Source of the DNA: Thermotoga sp.
Lineage (GTDB): Bacteria > Bipolaricaulota > Bipolaricaulia > Bipolaricaulales > Bipolaricaulaceae
Reading direction: 5' to 3'
NCBI GenBank assembly: GCA_020724765.1
Contig: DYGJ01000005.1
Span: forward strand, 1-34,800
DNA: 34,800 nucleotides
Part shown: positions 7,821-31,525 of the stretch, piece after piece
Position numbering within the stretch: position 1 is the stretch's first letter
Layout of the letters: each line of letters opens with the position of its first letter
Translations under genes and position numbers: made by a program
Notes under the pieces: generated by a model
Database searches by the model: none
What the model was told of the DNA's origin: nothing
The model's input: the letters and a program-made list of their open reading frames with translations, nothing else

Positions 7821-7883
7821 AGTTCACTGCCTCCCGCTGGGCCTTCGGCCACGCGGAGAAAATCGGATCCCCGCGGGTACTTG

Positions 7884-8310
7884 TTTGCCGCCGAGGCACA
7901 GAGGACGCAGAGAAAACCAGTTCTGGAATTGAATCTGTAGCGTCGCAGCCTGTCTGCGACGAACGACCGTCGGGGATGAACCCCGACGGTCGTTAGGGTT
8001 TCATGCCCGACGTCCGTTGGGTTGGACGGTTCGTCGGTTGACGGTGGAACGGTCCGAGAAAAGGCCGTCGCAGACGAGCTGCGCCGCTACGGAACTCAAA
8101 GGCTCTCACCGCCGAGCGCGCGGAGAACGCGAGAACAGCCGGTCAACGGAAAACCCCACCACAAAAGACACCAAGGTCACGAAGAAGAACACCAGGCATG
8201 AACCCTGGGGTTGGGAACCCCCGAATCCCTTTGTGTTCTTCGTGCCCTGGGTGGTGGAGTCCGGGGTTGCTCTGCGATCTCGGCGTCCTCGGCGGTGAAG
8301 CTGCAATACT
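7884..8310. repeat. Mosaic of inverted and dispersed repeats between ftsZ and nadE
   Basis: Contains GTAGCGTCGCAG...CTGCGCCGCTAC inverted arms, the perfect hairpin AACGACCGTCGGGG-ATGAA-CCCCGACGGTCGTT (7962-7994), and inverted arms CCACCACA...CACGAAGAAGAACAC / GTGTTCTTCGTGCCCTGGGTGGTGG. The segment near 7885-7950 is the reverse complement of the 3' end of the 18.4 kb repeat. Confidence 0.85.
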
Positions 8311-10135: not shown

Positions 10136-10485
10136 GGTCGAGATACATGTTTGGCGTACCGCGAACCCACCGCAGAGCGCCTGTCTGCCGCCAGGCAGCC
10201 GGAGTTCGCAGAGGTAACCGAGTCCGCATCCCTGTCCCTCCCTCTCCCCCGGGCGGGAGAGGGTCGGGGTGGTGGAAGGGATCGCAGCGTCGGGGTGCAT
10301 CCCGTGACTTCGGTTAGGCGGTCTGACGGTTACAGGTTTTGTACCGTCGGGCTTCATGCCCGACGGTCTTCCGTCGCAGATTTGTCTGCAGCAGGCAGAC
10401 ACGCTGCGACGCTACAGAACCTCTTCGATTCAACTCCAGAACTGGTGTTCTCTGCGTGCTCGGCGGTAAGCAAGTACGGGTCGAG
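10136..10485. repeat. Long composite intergenic repeat, copy 1
   Basis: Near-identical blocks to 18152-18512: GGAGTTCGCAGAGGTAACCGAGTCCGCATCCCTGTCCCTCCCTCTCCCCCGGGCGGGAGA and CATCCCGTGACTTCGGTTAGGC. Contains hairpin ACCGTCGGGC-TTCAT-GCCCGACGGT (10343-10367). Confidence 0.9.
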
Positions 10486-10824
10486 AAACGGTGACGAGCG
10501 GCGCCCCGATACAGACCGTGCGCTGTTTTTGGGATGGCGTTCAGGATAGGGCAGATTACAGGTTGAAACCCGCCCCTCGTCCGGGGTGTATACTGTTTAT
10601 CCAGAGAATCAGCGGCGCAGGCAGAGGGTCATCGCACGCATCGCCTCCCGGCCAGAACTCCAACGCCCTGCACGTCTTCCGACCTCTCCCCATGTCCTCC
10701 ATCTGCCTCCCCCCTGCCCCGCCGAAGGGGGTGGGCGCGAGGAATATACCGCACAGAAGTCCCGTGGATCGGGGTCCGGTCGTCAACGGATGCGGTCAAT
10801 CGTATCGTGTGGGGGTGACAGATC

Positions 10825-11739
10825 ATGCGGCGGTGGACTACGAGAGTGGCGTTCGTGGCACTTGTGGTTCTCGGGAGCAACTTCTGCTTGGCTCAGACTG
10901 AGCTTACTCTGGTGCCGGACTGGGCCAGGCTCACCCTCGGGCCGTTTGTTGGGATAACAGATGATGAGGCGCGGTTCTTTGTCGATGCCTCCTTGCCGTT
11001 CTTGGGTGGTGTCAGTGGCCAGCTGGTCGAGGTGACGGGGACGTCCCTAGCAGGGATGCAGATCACCATTCGCCTCGAGCCGCGGCTGGGTCTGTCCGCG
11101 ATTCTCGGCATCGGGAACATTGGCACGGTCTGGTTTCAACTCGCCGACTACCCTTGGGAGGCGATCACCCAGTTCTCCTTTGACTTCGGAGGTCCGAAAC
11201 CAGTTCTAGCCGTGGGGCAGGTTATCCTGGATACGGGACTGCTGTTTTCGGGGACATCTGTGTGCGACATCACCAGGGTTGAGGACGATAAGCTGAAGGC
11301 CAGACTCGAAGGAGATACGTGGTCCAAGACGTTCCCAAGGTTCGCCGCTAAGCCAGATATCAAAGAGAAGGACGCGAAGGGCTCCCCCAAGTACCCTCAC
11401 TGCACGTACATTGCAGTTGAGGAATGGATCAACTACGCTGAGCCCGGAGATATCAACCTCGGCGAAACATCCCTCTGCGTTCAGTTCTATCATAGCGACG
11501 GGACCGACTGGAAGGAGGTCGGTGAGCTTGTCTGCATCCCAGCGTACAACGACATGAGTCTCGTCCCGAAGGGCATGAAAGAGGGAACGTACGTCCTGGT
11601 CTGGGAGAAGGACGGCTACTGCCTGTACAAGATCCTCAGGAACGACTGGCGGAGCAGGCGTGGCGTGTGGAAGCCCTTGAGTCCTCCGTCCCAACCTCTG
11701 AAGGAGGAGTTTGAGCCAGGTGGCTTCGAGTTTGGATGA
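10825..11739 (+). CDS. Exported protein of unknown function with one degenerate TDD module
   Basis: N-terminal signal peptide MRRWTTRVAFVALVVLGSNFCLAQ; LGPFVGITDDEARFFVDASLPFLGGVSGQL resembles modules in the two other island proteins. Confidence 0.75.
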   Translation: MRRWTTRVAFVALVVLGSNFCLAQTELTLVPDWARLTLGPFVGITDDEARFFVDASLPFLGGVSGQLVEVTGTSLAGMQITIRLEPRLGLSAILGIGNIGTVWFQLADYPWEAITQFSFDFGGPKPVLAVGQVILDTGLLFSGTSVCDITRVEDDKLKARLEGDTWSKTFPRFAAKPDIKEKDAKGSPKYPHCTYIAVEEWINYAEPGDINLGETSLCVQFYHSDGTDWKEVGELVCIPAYNDMSLVPKGMKEGTYVLVWEKDGYCLYKILRNDWRSRRGVWKPLSPPSQPLKEEFEPGGFEFG

Positions 11740-11885
11740 GCTTGCCTGCTTCCTGACAGGAGGCGTGAAATCGGCGTTCCCTCGTGCCAGGCGGTCTGTG
11801 GATCGTGTCTCGCGCGTGGCGATGGGCTGTTTGTGAATGGGGAGTGAAGTCTATAGAGCAGACGTGTAACGGGAGGTGGGCTACG

Positions 11886-14627
11886 ATGCGCAAGGTGCAG
11901 CTGGGTCTGGGGCTACTTGTCATATGGGCCCTGGTGGGGTGGTCGCAGTGCTTAGAGGTGCCTTGTCTGAGCTTCGACGGCCCCTCGGTTACGTTCAAGC
12001 TTTGCGTGCAGGTCGCCGGGGGCACGTGCAGCAACGTTCCTAAGCCGCCTCCGGCACCCTCGGACGCCGTCCGCTGTTCGGTGTCGGAAGGAACCTCGGG
12101 AACGGTGGATCTCACCGTGACGCGCAACGCGCCCGGGAGTTTCGAGGGCCGGATCGTGCTGACTGGAAGCGTCCCAGGCGGATGGCCTGCCTTCACGCCG
12201 GTTTCTAGGTCAGGCTCGGGGAACATGTCTCAGACTGCTCAATACCGGTTCAGCGTGCCTCCCGGCACCGCCGGCCGAACGCTCGAACTCAAGTTCAAAG
12301 CCCAGGCGGACGGGTGTTTCGGAGAGCTGATCCTCACGGTAGTCCTCGAGGTGACCGCGAGGCCGTCTGAGCCCCAGCTCTACGGGCCGTTCACCGGGAC
12401 AACGGACGACGCCGGGAAGTTCACCGTACCGATTCCGGGCTTGCCCAACAACGTGCGAGTGGGAGGAACGCTCACCGAGTGCACGGTGAAGATCCTTGCT
12501 CGGACCCCGGTGACGATCTACGTGGCAGCCCGCACGATGACTTTAGGAGGCGTGGGGTTTGTCTGGGCCTCCTACTCCGTGCCCCCGGTGGTCCAGCAAG
12601 CGTCCCCCGTTGACTATGTCCTGGTCTCCGTGCCGGGATACCCCCAGATGAGGGTGACCCCAGTCCAGATCATCCCGATCATCGTCGGGGGCACAACGTA
12701 CACGATGGTGGACCTGGGAACCGTGTCGTTCCCTGCTCCGACATGTCAGACCCGGCCGCCCGATGGTGGGATTACGGGTAAGACCGATGGTCAAGGGGGG
12801 TTCACGGTCAGCGTTGGAAGTGGAAACACTGTCTCCGGGAAGCTCAGGGAGTGCACCGAAAAGCCTCTTCCGAACCAAACGTTCACCGTGATCCCCAAGT
12901 TCTCGGGGAGCGAACTCGACGCCGTCACCTTTGTGGTCCCTGGCTACGCCGACACCACGGTGACGAAGGCTGTCTCCGTGGTCCACCTGGGTGCCATGAA
13001 GTACATCAACCTAGGCGACGTGTGCTTCTCCTTGCCGACACAGATCTCGCCCAAACCGAGGCTTGTTCTAGTTGATGTGGCAGTGGAGAGCTTCGCGCCG
13101 GTCTACTTCCTGCAGCAGACGGTTGACGAACTCCTCGAATTCAAGCTCGAGGCGGTCGAAGGGAGTACTGTCATGGAGCTGTCGGCCACACTGCGAGATG
13201 CCCGAGTCTCTGGACTCACGAGGGTCTCGGCTGGGGAGGTTGTCGTGCTGCCTTTAACGTGGCTCAGCGAGACATCAAGGAACAAGGTTGCGCAGAAGGA
13301 GTCCAGCATCGTCAGGTGTGCGAATTGGGCGTGGCAGGTTCCGGTTGCTGCCGAAGGCCCGTTCGGGGAGTTCAACGATCTGATCGTCAGGCGAACGGAG
13401 GCAGACAGAGTACGTGAAACCCCTATAAACGAGAACACGTTCTTCCGGGTCCAGGAGAAGGAACTGGACAAGATCGTCATAGCGAATGGCAAGGTGGCGT
13501 TGGGAATATGGGAGATGACCGCGAAGATCAGGACGCCTGACGGAGTCGTCCATACTGTCGTTTCAGAGCCTGACTACCGTGCGGAAGTCAAATTGACGCT
13601 TGACGATGGGAGCGTCATCTCTGTAGTCGAAGGGGTTCCCCATCTCTACCAGCTCTTCGGTCGCGAGGTGCCAGTCTATGAACTCAAGTTCTGTCAAGAG
13701 GCGGGTATTGAAGCTCGCGAGCTGCGCCAACCATCTGTTATGCAGTACTACAGTCTGGTCCCCGAGAGTCTGCAGAAGCGCGCAGATGTAGGCGGAGACC
13801 CGCTGACGATAGACCTCTATGCCAGGGTTGACCTCCGGAAGTGGGGAGTAGCGCCAGAGGTTGTGCTTGGGGGGAATTACATGTTGATCGGAAACCCCCT
13901 GACATGCCGCTTGGAGGGGTTGGACGCTCAGATCCGGAGCAACGCTTTCTACATCTGTCCGGCAATCAGCAAGGATGATCTTCCCGTCGAGACTGAGTCC
14001 GAGGTGATTGTAGAGCCCGCGTCTGGGACGTACGAGTGCAACGTCGCTGTTGAGCACGGAACCTGGACCGCTCTCTCGAAACTGCTGCTGGAGGAGGCGC
14101 TGGGGTTCGCCTTCGGAGGTGGCGTTCCGAACACGGGAGCGCAGCTGATCGAATTCCTGTTTGAGAAGGCGAGAGACTACCTCATGGACGATCTCCAGGC
14201 TCGGGTGGAGGGAGACGGTGCAGCTGCCGTCGAAGCCTACGCGTCAGTGTACCAAGCGCTGTTCTCTGCATCATCAGCTGATCCAGCACCCTGGTATGCT
14301 GCAACCTACAGGGTTCTACCTCCAGGAACCAACATTGGGAGGCGCGCTCTTGACGGGTTGATCACATGCACCTGGGAGAGTTCTGGCAGACCGTCCTATC
14401 AGGTGGTGACGGGTGCCGCTGCTGTGGCTATGGTGCTTGGCAGGGCAGCGAGAATCAAGAACTGGGTAGCCTATGCCAAGGTATCGTTAAGGCTAGACAG
14501 CTCTTGGTGGAAGGTGTGGAGCACTGTGGACGAAGATGTCTTGCCACACTATGAAGAGGGCATCCTGCGCCTGTGGCACGATGCACGCGAGGTGGATACC
14601 AAGGATCCCAATACCACCTGGAAGTAG
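11886..14627 (+). CDS. Large (about 914 aa) exported modular protein of unknown function with two TDD/carboxypeptidase-regulatory-like modules
   Basis: Signal peptide MRKVQLGLGLLVIWALVGWSQC from ATG 11886; repeats YGPFTGTTDDAGKFTV...VPGYPQMRV...VDLGTVSF and GGITGKTDGQGGFTV...VPGYADTTV...INLGDVCF. Confidence 0.78.
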   Translation: MRKVQLGLGLLVIWALVGWSQCLEVPCLSFDGPSVTFKLCVQVAGGTCSNVPKPPPAPSDAVRCSVSEGTSGTVDLTVTRNAPGSFEGRIVLTGSVPGGWPAFTPVSRSGSGNMSQTAQYRFSVPPGTAGRTLELKFKAQADGCFGELILTVVLEVTARPSEPQLYGPFTGTTDDAGKFTVPIPGLPNNVRVGGTLTECTVKILARTPVTIYVAARTMTLGGVGFVWASYSVPPVVQQASPVDYVLVSVPGYPQMRVTPVQIIPIIVGGTTYTMVDLGTVSFPAPTCQTRPPDGGITGKTDGQGGFTVSVGSGNTVSGKLRECTEKPLPNQTFTVIPKFSGSELDAVTFVVPGYADTTVTKAVSVVHLGAMKYINLGDVCFSLPTQISPKPRLVLVDVAVESFAPVYFLQQTVDELLEFKLEAVEGSTVMELSATLRDARVSGLTRVSAGEVVVLPLTWLSETSRNKVAQKESSIVRCANWAWQVPVAAEGPFGEFNDLIVRRTEADRVRETPINENTFFRVQEKELDKIVIANGKVALGIWEMTAKIRTPDGVVHTVVSEPDYRAEVKLTLDDGSVISVVEGVPHLYQLFGREVPVYELKFCQEAGIEARELRQPSVMQYYSLVPESLQKRADVGGDPLTIDLYARVDLRKWGVAPEVVLGGNYMLIGNPLTCRLEGLDAQIRSNAFYICPAISKDDLPVETESEVIVEPASGTYECNVAVEHGTWTALSKLLLEEALGFAFGGGVPNTGAQLIEFLFEKARDYLMDDLQARVEGDGAAAVEAYASVYQALFSASSADPAPWYAATYRVLPPGTNIGRRALDGLITCTWESSGRPSYQVVTGAAAVAMVLGRAARIKNWVAYAKVSLRLDSSWWKVWSTVDEDVLPHYEEGILRLWHDAREVDTKDPNTTWK

Positions 14628-14721
14628 GGGGATCCAGCGAGCGAGCGCAGTCGGGTCTTGCGATACGACAGGCGGGTAGACGGAAGGGTCCGCCCGGACA
14701 GAGGAAGGAGGTGCGCCAAAC

Positions 14722-16356
14722 ATGAACGGGGAAAGGCAGCGCTGGGTTCAAGCTGAAGGGTTCTGGGTCCCACGCGCGACTGTCATTCTGGTCGCCGTCC
14801 TGGGTGCCTTGGTATGGAGCGTCGGCGCTGTCGTTCCATTCACTGTCTCCCTGGGGAAGGCGGAGGTTCAGATCTACCCCGAGCATCCGACCGAGGGCGA
14901 TTCGGTTGTGCTCGTCGTGTCGGGCACGTGGACCAACTCGTGCGTGCCCAAGCTCTCGGCAGTGCGGATGTCAGGGAAGCACATCATCGTCTCCATGGAG
15001 AGCTCGGCCACGGGCTGCACTGGACTACTGGCCCCGTGGAAGCTGCAAGCCACCGTGGAGGGCCTACCGCCCGGAACCTATGCCGTGACGGTCACTCACC
15101 GGATGGCTGGCCCTGGCTACGTTCTACCGGAGAAGACCATCGGCCAGGCGACGTTTCAGGTGCGGATGTCCGGCTGCGACTCCGGCGAGCCGCTCCCGGA
15201 GCCGTCCGTGACGGACCTTGCGGAGCTCGTGCGGGGCAACACAGAGTTCGCTCTCGCCCTGTATCAGGCGCTGCGGGGAGATGGGGGGACCGAGGGGGAG
15301 AACCTGTTCTTCTCGCCCTACAACATCTCGCTCTGCTTGGCGATGGCCTATGCCGGCGCGCGGGGGGAGACGGAGCGCCAGATGGCCGAGGCCCTGCGGT
15401 TCACCCTCCCCCAGGACCGGCTCCACCCGGCGTTCGCCCGGTTGAGCCTCGCGTTGGCAGGCCGGAGGGGGCTCGAGCTGAGCACTGCCAACTCCCTGTG
15501 GGGCCAGAGGGGATACCCGTTCCTCCCCTCGTTCCTCTGTCTCCTGGGGGAGGTGTACGGCGCCCCGCTCCGAGAGCTGGACTTCTGGGCCGATCCCGAG
15601 GCTGCGCGGCAGACGATCAACCGCTGGGTGGAGGAGGAGACGCGGGAGAGGATCCAGGACCTCATCCCTCCCGGTGGCATCAACCCTCTCACACGGCTCG
15701 TCCTCGTCAACGCCGTCTACTTCGAGGCGGCCTGGAAGTTCCCGTTTGACAAGGGGGCTACCCATGACGCTCCGTTCTACCTCCTGGACGGGCGGGAGAT
15801 TCTTGTCCCGACGATGACGGAGGCGGCTGGGTTCGGCTATGCGGCAGGAGAGGGGTGGCAGGCGGTGGAACTGCCCTACGAAGGCGAGCAGGTCTCGATG
15901 GTGATCCTGCTTCCTGACCTCGGCCGGTTCGAGGAGTTCGAGCGCTCGCTCGACGCGCACCGGCTCGCCGAGATCGTCGGGCAGCTAGAAGCCACGCAGC
16001 TCTCCGTGTACCTCCGGCTGTCTCTGCCCAAGTTCACGTTCACCTCGCGGCTCGAGTTGGCACGGGTTCTTGCCGAGGAACTCGGGATGTGCGACGCCTT
16101 CTCAGCGCGCGCGGACTTCTCGGGGATGACCGGTCGGCCAGACCTGTTCATCGACAAGGTGTACCACCAGGCGTTCGTGGAGGTGGACGAGGCGGGGACC
16201 GAGGCCGCAGCTGCCACCGCGGGCGTCGTCATGCCGATGGGGCTGATGCCCGAGCCCCACGAGGTGAGGGTGAATCGGCCGTTCCTGTTCCTCATCCGCG
16301 ACCGGGAGACGGGAACGGTCCTGTCCCTAGGGCGCGTTCTTGACCCAGCATCCTGA
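14722..16356 (+). CDS. Exported serpin (serine protease inhibitor) with an N-terminal SGTW module
   Basis: Serpin hallmarks: ENLFFSPYNISLCLAMAYAGARGETERQMAEAL, LVLVNAVYFEAAWKFPF, hinge VDEAGTEAAAATA, RPFLFLIRDRETGTVLSLGRV. N-terminal hydrophobic segment; good Shine-Dalgarno-like GGAAGGAGG upstream. Confidence 0.94.
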   Translation: MNGERQRWVQAEGFWVPRATVILVAVLGALVWSVGAVVPFTVSLGKAEVQIYPEHPTEGDSVVLVVSGTWTNSCVPKLSAVRMSGKHIIVSMESSATGCTGLLAPWKLQATVEGLPPGTYAVTVTHRMAGPGYVLPEKTIGQATFQVRMSGCDSGEPLPEPSVTDLAELVRGNTEFALALYQALRGDGGTEGENLFFSPYNISLCLAMAYAGARGETERQMAEALRFTLPQDRLHPAFARLSLALAGRRGLELSTANSLWGQRGYPFLPSFLCLLGEVYGAPLRELDFWADPEAARQTINRWVEEETRERIQDLIPPGGINPLTRLVLVNAVYFEAAWKFPFDKGATHDAPFYLLDGREILVPTMTEAAGFGYAAGEGWQAVELPYEGEQVSMVILLPDLGRFEEFERSLDAHRLAEIVGQLEATQLSVYLRLSLPKFTFTSRLELARVLAEELGMCDAFSARADFSGMTGRPDLFIDKVYHQAFVEVDEAGTEAAAATAGVVMPMGLMPEPHEVRVNRPFLFLIRDRETGTVLSLGRVLDPAS

Positions 16357-16386
16357 ATGGCGATTACTTGACAGAGGAGGGATCCG

Positions 16387-17694
16387 ATGGTGACGAAGGG
16401 ATCTCAAGGATGCAAGCAGCTACAAGGGCAGGCGCCGGCCCGTTCGTACAGGGCAAGGGCGGCTTCTGCAATTCTGTTGTTGGTCGCTGCAGTCATCTTC
16501 GCGGCTTGGGGCGGAGCAGCAGGACCAGACGGTGCAGTGGAGATCGAGATCGTCCCGCCCCATCCCATCACGGAGGATTCGATCGCGCTTGTCCTATCGG
16601 GCACCTGGAAGGATTCGTGTGTCCCGCAAGCGCCGGAGGTGATGATCCTCGGCAGTCAGATCACGGTCACGACCTCGAACCCGGGCGGGATCTGCCTGAC
16701 GGTTCTCACCCCGTGGCAGTTGACCGTGCCCATCGGGACCCTCTCGTTCCCCGGCTGGTACTCGGTGGTCGTGGTCCACAACGGGCAACCGATCGGTGGG
16801 ATCGAGTTCGAGGTCCGCACCGGGAAGGACGGGTCCGCTCCGCCTGTCATGCTCGGCCCCGTCGTGGGCGTCACGGACGATGAAGGCCGGTTCACGGTGG
16901 CGCTGGTGACCCCGATGGCTGCGCAGTTCAGCGGGCGACTCTTCGATCTCGACGGGGAGCCGATCGCCCGCCAGTCGGTCGTGTTGTCCCCTAAGGATGC
17001 GCACGGGCGCCTCTCCGGCAGCGTGGACGGTATCGTCAGCATCGACGTGGCAGTCCCGGGCTACGTTCCCTCCGAGATCACCGAGTTCACCCACGTGACG
17101 TTCCTGTTCGTGACGATGGTCAGCGTGGGGGATGTGTGCCTGTGTCGAGCCCCGGATCGGGAGGAAAGCGGGGCACTGTGGCGGGTCATCACCTGGGACG
17201 ACTTCGAGGGGACCCCACCCGAAGGAGCGGACAAGGAGCCGGAGGCGGCGCGGATCGCGATCTTCCTCAAGCACGCCCCCAAGAGGGTCCAGGTTTGGCT
17301 TGACAAGGCGGCGCGCAAATGGAAGGCGAAGTACACGAAGATCGAGGTCACGAACTTCATGGACAAGTCCCAGTCGTGGGTCCTCCCCGGCCACAAGACG
17401 GCCGCACTCCTCAACCACGAGCAGAAGCACTTCGACCTGAACGAGGTCTACCGCCAACTGCTCCAGGAGGCGTTGGAGAAGCTGGAGGGCGAGGGGGACA
17501 CGCAGAGGGACGCTCTCAAAGACCTGAACAAGAAGGTCGCGGAGACGACCGCCAAGTTTGAAGCCGAGGCGAAGAAGCAGCAAGAGAGATACGACAAGGA
17601 GACCGACCATGGTCGGAATGCGGAGAAGCAGGCGGAGTGGGACAAGCGGATCGCCGGGTGGCTCGCTGACCCGAGCACTTCCCCTCAGCCGTAG
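16387..17694 (+). CDS. Exported protein: SGTW module + TDD module + C-terminal DUF922-like putative metalloprotease domain
   Basis: N-terminal hydrophobic segment; VEIEIVPPHPITEDSIALVLSGTWKDSCVP; LGPVVGVTDDEGRFTV; C-terminal WRVITWDDFEGTP...KSQSWVLPGHKTAALLNHEQKHFDLNEVYRQLL (HExxH). DUF922 assignment is from remembered family features, not a search. Confidence 0.75.
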   Translation: MVTKGSQGCKQLQGQAPARSYRARAASAILLLVAAVIFAAWGGAAGPDGAVEIEIVPPHPITEDSIALVLSGTWKDSCVPQAPEVMILGSQITVTTSNPGGICLTVLTPWQLTVPIGTLSFPGWYSVVVVHNGQPIGGIEFEVRTGKDGSAPPVMLGPVVGVTDDEGRFTVALVTPMAAQFSGRLFDLDGEPIARQSVVLSPKDAHGRLSGSVDGIVSIDVAVPGYVPSEITEFTHVTFLFVTMVSVGDVCLCRAPDREESGALWRVITWDDFEGTPPEGADKEPEAARIAIFLKHAPKRVQVWLDKAARKWKAKYTKIEVTNFMDKSQSWVLPGHKTAALLNHEQKHFDLNEVYRQLLQEALEKLEGEGDTQRDALKDLNKKVAETTAKFEAEAKKQQERYDKETDHGRNAEKQAEWDKRIAGWLADPSTSPQP

Positions 17695-18151: not shown

Positions 18152-18512
18152 TGTTCAGCGTACCTCGAGTCCACCGCAGAGACGCTTGTTTGCCGACAGG
18201 CAGGCCAGTTTGCCCTGCCTGCACGGGCAGGCGCGAGGCAGGCGGAGTTCGCAGAGGTAACCGAGTCCGCATCCCTGTCCCTCCCTCTCCCCCGGGCGGG
18301 AGAAGGTCGGGGTGAGGGAAGGGATCGTAGCGTCGGGGTTCATCCCGTGACTTCGGTTAGGCAGTTTGACGGTTACAGGTTCGGGACGAGCCCAATCCGG
18401 TTCGTCGCAGACACGCTGAGACGCTACAGAACCTCGGGAACTTGGATTCAATTCCAGAACTGGTTTCTCTGCGTCCTTTGTGTGCTCGGCGGTAGACACG
18501 TACGGTGGCACG
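18152..18512. repeat. Long composite intergenic repeat, copy 2
   Basis: Same order of blocks as 10136-10485: ATGTT.AGCGTACC.CGA..CCACCGCAGAG, GGAGTTCGCAGAGGTAACC..., TCCCGTGACTTCGGTTAGGC, ACGCTGAGACGCTACAGAACC, GATTCAATTCCAGAACTGG, CTCTGCGT...GTGCTCGGCGGTA. Confidence 0.9.
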
Positions 18513-31234: not shown

Positions 31235-31525
31235 CGACCAAACGGCCGTCGGGGATGAACCCCGACGCTGCGCAACCAGCGCCCGTTCCACGGAAGATCT
31301 CGTAGCGTCGCAGCTTGCCTGCTGCAGACAGGTCTGCGACGGCATTTCACGGAACAGCAGAACCGAGGAGCCGCCAGCCATCGAACCGCTTTTCTGGCCG
31401 TCGGGCATGAAGCCCGACGCTACGCAATCCGAGAGGCCGTCGGGGACAAGCCTCGACGCTACAACATCCTCGCCGATCCCCAGGAAGAGGCCGTGGCGGC
31501 GCAGTTCGTCGGCGACGGCCTTCTC
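31235..31525. repeat. Tandem cluster of palindromic repeat units between prfA and smpB
   Basis: GGCCGTCGGGGATGAACCCCGACGCTGC, GTAGCGTCGCAGCTTGCC...GTCTGCGACGGC, GGCCGTCGGGCATGAAGCCCGACGCTAC, GGCCGTCGGGGACAAGCCTCGACGCTAC, GTGGCGGCGCAGTTCGTCGGCGACGGCC in succession. Confidence 0.9.

Follow-up and report, generated by a model that had tools for sequence, protein, structure and literature searches.

Almost nothing is known of the surface biology of the uncultured phylum Bipolaricaulota; in the published Candidatus Bipolaricaulis genome, adhesins were reported to be absent and extracellular proteases to number just one (PMC6092417). An earlier note had read four consecutive genes for secreted proteins, one a serpin and one with an HExxH motif, as a cell-surface or extracellular proteolysis/inhibition system that pairs the serpin with the HExxH protein. 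In this study, the window, meaning the whole analysed stretch of 34,800 nucleotides (contig C110 of a 1.7 Mb MAG that is 84% complete), was compared with all 100 genomes of the phylum, most of which are fragmented MAGs. The four genes are probably what is now found at a variable locus for secreted proteins, which in the genus of Candidatus Bipolaricaulis lies between nadE and hycI/crp.

The four genes and their shared modules

The features of the locus are listed below by position, strand, and description.

10189..10479, no strand: imperfect direct repeat (~290 nt), left copy, between nadE and gene 1
10567..10650, +: conserved leader 5' of gene 1 (TGAAACC..TGTATAcT and GCGGCGCAGGCAGAGGGTC)
10825..11739, +: gene 1, secreted, with a signal-like segment, module B, and an orphan C-terminus
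10927..11229, +: module B of gene 1, degenerate
11886..14627, +: gene 2, secreted C-B-B chassis with cargo
12057..12365, +: module C of gene 2, a beta-sandwich
12372..12731, +: module B of gene 2, copy 1
12753..13028, +: module B of gene 2, copy 2
13101..14624, +: cargo of gene 2, an uncharacterised family (VYF..ETPINENTWFR..DDLPVE..) shared only with the G002 and G027 homologues
14722..16356, +: gene 3, module A and serpin
14842..15171, +: module A of gene 3
15235..16347, +: serpin domain, inhibitory hinge EAGTEAAAATA intact
16189..16254, +: reactive-centre loop of the serpin, EAGTEAAAATAGVVMPM/GLMPE, predicted P2-P1 Pro-Met506
16387..17694, +: gene 4, built as A-B-DUF922 and predicted to be a zinc peptidase that is secreted
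16516..16824, +: module A of gene 4
16843..17142, +: module B of gene 4
17173..17685, +: DUF922 domain, HEQKH at 17416-17430
18232..18505, no strand: flanking direct repeat, right copy, between hycI and crp; also in the same place in G006

The four open reading frames, all on the + strand and each with a hydrophobic N-terminal segment (Kyte-Doolittle 15-mer maxima 2.15-2.77), are present as the earlier note had described them. From gene 1 to gene 4, they are separated by 146, 94, and 30 nt, and a purine-rich sequence resembling a ribosome-binding site lies 5' of genes 2-4. No Pfam family matches gene 1 or gene 2, and the GC content of these two genes (58-60%) is lower than that of their neighbours (64-67%).

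Both of the modules proposed earlier are borne out. Module A ('SGTW..SCVP..PW') is common to genes 3 and 4 with a similarity far beyond chance (blastp E 2e-17, 41% identity), and module B ('TDDxGxF..GY..LGxV') is common to genes 1, 2, and 4 (E 3e-7 to 1e-4). The second copy of B in gene 2 had been missed, as had a third module, C (aa ~58-160 of gene 2), which is also found on other DUF922 proteins. All three are N-terminal beta-sandwich modules, and none rises above Pfam family cut-offs. Proteins elsewhere in the phylum, CARDB and dockerin-like ones among them, carry modules A-C as well; module A is found there with CARDB, with BsuPI-type inhibitor domains, with Ig/InlB-type repeats, and with dockerin-like ends, the last recognized by eye only at the C-termini of proteins in G055 and G048. 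In L034, L038, and L043, module A is joined to a BsuPI-type protease-inhibitor domain, a second kind of inhibitor on this module. Relatives of module A were found in neither viral contigs nor plasmids. The sharing of modules supports the proposal that these are secreted proteins with common assembly- or adhesion-like parts; judged only by position and fold, the modules may anchor them to the cell surface or within the matrix.

The serpin and the DUF922 protein

Gene 3 encodes a serpin, as had been claimed: Pfam PF00079 matches aa 172-542 (1.3e-110) and is covered from position 2 to 370 of 370. Its hinge, EAGTEAAAATA, agrees at P17-P9 with the inhibitory motif ExGTEAAAA described for serpins (PMC8233489). 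The best PDB sequence match (1e-77) is Chloropin (8GXV), which, like other environmental bacterial serpins (PMC10090351, PMC8233489), shares the fold and the intact inhibitory hinge; the window serpin differs in its extra N-terminal beta module and in a predicted Pro-Met at P2-P1 instead of Arg at P1. With P1 placed by the canonical 17-residue hinge count, its Met predicts elastase- or subtilisin-like serine proteases as targets.

The HExxH motif noticed in gene 4 is HEQKH (aa 344-348), and the protein belongs to DUF922 (PF06037, 33 bits against a cut-off of 27). A zincin fold and metalloprotease function have been predicted for DUF922 (PMC3650047), and gene 4 likewise has HEQxH, the conserved W, SW, and the downstream E/D. 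HEQxHF is invariant in 16 aligned members. Gene 4, whose activity is predicted, is distinguished by fusion to A-B, whereas elsewhere in the phylum DUF922 is joined to C, A, B, or C-B-B. The AlphaFold model of gene 4 is confident only in DUF922 (pLDDT ~74-93), and the whole model has no significant PDB match.

If genes 3 and 4 were a dedicated extracellular pair, the serpin would regulate either the HExxH protein itself or how that protein matures, with scaffolds supplied by genes 1 and 2. The arrangement is suggestive: the two genes are neighbours on the same strand, only 30 nt apart, and both carry module A. Inhibitors on module A also recur, since three related proteins have BsuPI-type inhibitor domains fused to it. 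However, serpins are present in 25 and DUF922 in 49 of the 100 genomes, and the two occur together in 11, where 12.25 are expected by chance (Fisher p=0.65). They are adjacent only in the window genome; the closest relative, G006, has no serpin even though its gene 4 is 86% identical; and of the 28 other serpins of full length, 0 carry module A, B, or C. The proteases that serpins trap are of the serine and cysteine classes; metalloproteases are not trapped. A DUF922 metalloprotease is therefore not a plausible serpin target, and the two proteins probably act independently; inhibition of the zinc peptidase by the serpin was rejected on this known specificity. The pairing put forward by the earlier note is thus not supported, and a dedicated pair is highly improbable.

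The serpin was added at this particular locus: the closest relative lacks it, and in another species it has decayed. In G006, whose flanking DNA is ~94-95% identical to the window, gene 2 is followed directly by gene 4 at a distance of 34 nt. The module/serpin fusion was found in one species, with an adjacent relic in a second (G009). The relic, at L092 10416-11088, consists of an N-terminal gene-2 fragment fused to a frameshifted serpin C-terminus. Its broken serpin piece has the window serpin as its best match, and over 223 bp the piece of gene 2 shows 96.4% DNA identity with the window, compared with 75-79% for the flanking DNA. This difference suggests a recent inter-species exchange of the island. 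An assembly artefact as the source of the serpin insertion was rejected, as the G009 relic at the same spot argues against it. The serpin is a recent, non-conserved payload and not half of a fixed inhibitor/metalloprotease pair.

The serpin probably blocks the serine proteases of neighbouring bacteria and not the zinc peptidase. Held by module A, it would act as a suicide trap that shields surface proteins, independently of the DUF922 peptidase. Such a surface-held shield fits the proteolytic-community setting of Candidatus Bipolaricaulis; Ran1 lives by fermenting amino acids and peptides, encodes one extracellular protease, and relies on proteolytic neighbours (PMC6092417). A module-bearing serpin is in itself of a known kind, because cellulosomes include serpins and peptidases with dockerins; the secreted serpins of Ruminococcus flavefaciens (SIGN-Doc-SERPIN tandem genes, PMC2930009) likewise carry an extra N-terminal module shared with the secreted enzymes of that organism. 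Unlike that module, module A is not a dockerin, and no scaffoldin or cohesin is known here; Pfam matches show no dockerin on the four window proteins. The literature search found no paper mentioning serpins together with Bipolaricaulota.

A constant chassis with interchangeable cargo

In gene 2 and its relatives, the C-B-B chassis is conserved and the cargo at the C-terminus is interchangeable. In 19 genomes, a protein with B-B, usually in the form C-B-B, was found, and its C-terminal part is unrelated from one cargo type to the next. The cargos are listed below; the EEP, PKD, CARDB, and DUF922 identities are backed by Pfam.

Uncharacterised family: window, G002, G027
HExxH peptidase-like, HE(L/M)GHYWW..EGFAEF: G006, G009, G025, G036
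Endonuclease/exonuclease/phosphatase (EEP, PF03372): G020, G021, G033, G035, G037
PKD/CARDB: G010, G028, G098
DUF922: G001
Others: single cases

The cargo family of the window (~500 aa) has the strongly conserved motifs ETPINENTWFR, GDDDLPVE, and DPNSTWK, and its homologues lie at L102 6390-7895 and L105 15598-17145. Neither Pfam nor NCBIfam gave a match above cut-off for the window cargo, and it has no sequence relative in the PDB. The HExxH cargo (~600 aa, motif HE[LM]GHYWWLQIYG..EGFAEF) was seen at L091 782-2599, L092 12497-14305, L095 9212-10999, and L099 2342-4231. It matches no Pfam family at 0.01 and no sequence in the PDB, and is possibly an undescribed family of secreted metallopeptidases.

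Three sister species whose flanks are 93-95% identical at the DNA level bear three unrelated gene-2 cargos: the uncharacterised family, HExxH, and PKD/CARDB. The chassis of the window is 63% identical to that of G010, and their cargos are unrelated; the window cargo is ~33-35% identical to those of G002 and G027, whose chassis are 35-36% identical to its own. On the chassis tree, which has 18 rows only, cargo type changes 11 times, close to the shuffled mean of 12.2 (39 of 200 shuffles were as low); thus, cargo is not inherited with the chassis. The chassis was modelled as tandem beta-sandwiches (pLDDT 77) with weak, generic beta-sandwich fold matches. It has no convincing PDB sequence relative and no relatives in viral contigs, and a collection scan with a 6-row chassis alignment returned 8 named loci, all from Bipolaricaulota/Acetothermia.

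Polymorphic toxin systems also combine a constant N-terminal part with C-terminal domains exchanged at one locus. The gene-2 locus resembles them in its constant N-terminus, variable C-terminus, and single location; by analogy, a trafficking chassis would deliver swapped effectors against competitors. Nuclease-like and peptidase-like domains among the unrelated C-termini and the high turnover among sister species agree with this analogy. However, no cognate immunity gene accompanies the cargo, the next gene being the serpin, DUF922, or hycI; the cargos are long (400-600 aa), longer than in toxin systems, and not all are enzymatic, some being binding domains (PKD/CARDB). PADLOC gave no match, and no toxin-delivery family is among the Pfam matches. 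Such a toxin-like function is quite unlikely. A phage or defence origin of the island was also considered and rejected.

At such a variable locus, the cargos of the DUF922 and HExxH kinds would be zinc peptidases and the EEP cargo a nuclease or phosphodiesterase, serving nutrition or competition. What is new here is the locus that swaps cargo; secreted proteins of modular build are known, as are serpins that bear modules.

Gene content between nadE and hycI

The order nadE-[island]-hycI-crp-acs is shared by G000, G005, G006, G008, G009, G010, and G012, with DUF502 also in the right flank (hycI/crp/DUF502/acs). The contents of the island differ as follows.

Window: gene 1, gene 2, serpin, gene 4
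G006, island starting at the contig end: gene 2 with HExxH cargo, then gene 4, no serpin
G010, island spread over two contigs: gene 1; on the second contig, gene 2 with PKD/CARDB cargo, then hycI
G009, contig stopping within the locus: gene 1, relic (gene-2 fragment and broken serpin), gene 2 with HExxH cargo
G005: gene 1, short gene 2, decayed A-B-DUF922
G008: gene 1 and short gene 2
G012: gene 2, another C-module protein, gene 1

In G025 and G021, a DUF922 gene follows gene 2 downstream of nadE. The earlier note had staked its reading on a conserved gene order and on an association between serpin and DUF922 genes. The order is kept in part (gene 1, gene 2, and, in some species, the A-B-DUF922 gene, from nadE to hycI), and the serpin is not; the association is absent.

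Homologues of gene 1 occupy the same position in G005, G008, G009, G011, G012, and G015, although they are diverged (23-36% identity). The leader upstream of gene 1 can be aligned across five species of the genus, whereas the genes downstream of it diverge. Perfect matches to a 17-mer of this leader occur only upstream of gene-1-like genes, in G000, G009, G010, and G011. The leader is a possible promoter region for the island; a standard sigma-70 consensus scan gave no promoter match in the part of the window that it covered, and an RNA family search gave nothing above threshold.

Repeats lie on both sides of the island. The left copy is 94% identical over 150 nt to 18232-18381, with a gapped extension (78%) to 18505 (repeat search, blastn), and two of the three strong copies in the genome are those that flank the island. 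They belong to a low-copy dispersed family, related pieces of which lie at 7877-8098, ~29755, 31302-31423, and 34711. Excision was not observed. A breakpoint is also apparent within gene 4: between the window and G006, identity is 83-100% from module A onward and 32% in the signal region, a drop that reads as a break at a domain edge. The flanking repeats may drive the exchange of contents, which would be replaced through recombination at these repeats and at module boundaries.

The dispersed repeats on both sides also favour another reading, in which a recombination-prone intergenic site has simply gathered unrelated secreted genes with common Ig-like modules, secretion being their sole common role. 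The presence of modules A-C on CARDB, dockerin-like, and other proteins elsewhere, and the lack of association between serpin and DUF922, are in line with such accretion. It is nevertheless unlikely, given that the gene-1 leader and C-B-B chassis stay in place as cargo changes, and that DUF922 is met again and again, next to the chassis or within it, in G000, G001, G005 (decayed), G006, G021, and G025. DUF922 is the recurrent partner of the modules.

The variable secreted-protein locus can be given a more specific, tentative form: Bipolaricaulota may keep a dedicated display locus between nadE and hycI with a constant leader and C-B-B chassis, whose payload would change from species to species through recombination, both at the edges of modules and at the flanking repeats. 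Module-bearing DUF922 and serpin genes would be gained and lost alongside, forming a lineage-specific surface toolkit for life in a proteolytic community. A constant chassis with cargo exchange amid ~94% identical flanks would be a sign that secreted proteins are under strong selection. The locus also offers defined modules (A, B, and C) and an unusual module-bearing serpin as a candidate shield in proteolytic communities.

Modules A/B/C are found on 24 of the 56 DUF922 domains in the tree: 17 C-DUF922, 3 A-DUF922, 2 A-B-DUF922, 1 B-DUF922, and 1 C-B-B-DUF922. The A-B-DUF922 proteins of the window and G006 form a branch separate from the C-DUF922 form, which is inherited vertically in the genus and has a copy on contig C82 of the window genome. 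Some long open reading frames around DUF922 genes (for example, in G025) are over-extended at the 5' end, so their lengths overstate protein size. The C-DUF922 gene, seen at L118 (9262-10239, contig C82 of the same genome) and also at L126, L127, L128, and L129, adjoins a divergent ~228-aa gene and, in most cases, a 941-999-aa gene; this looks like the ancestral DUF922 locus.
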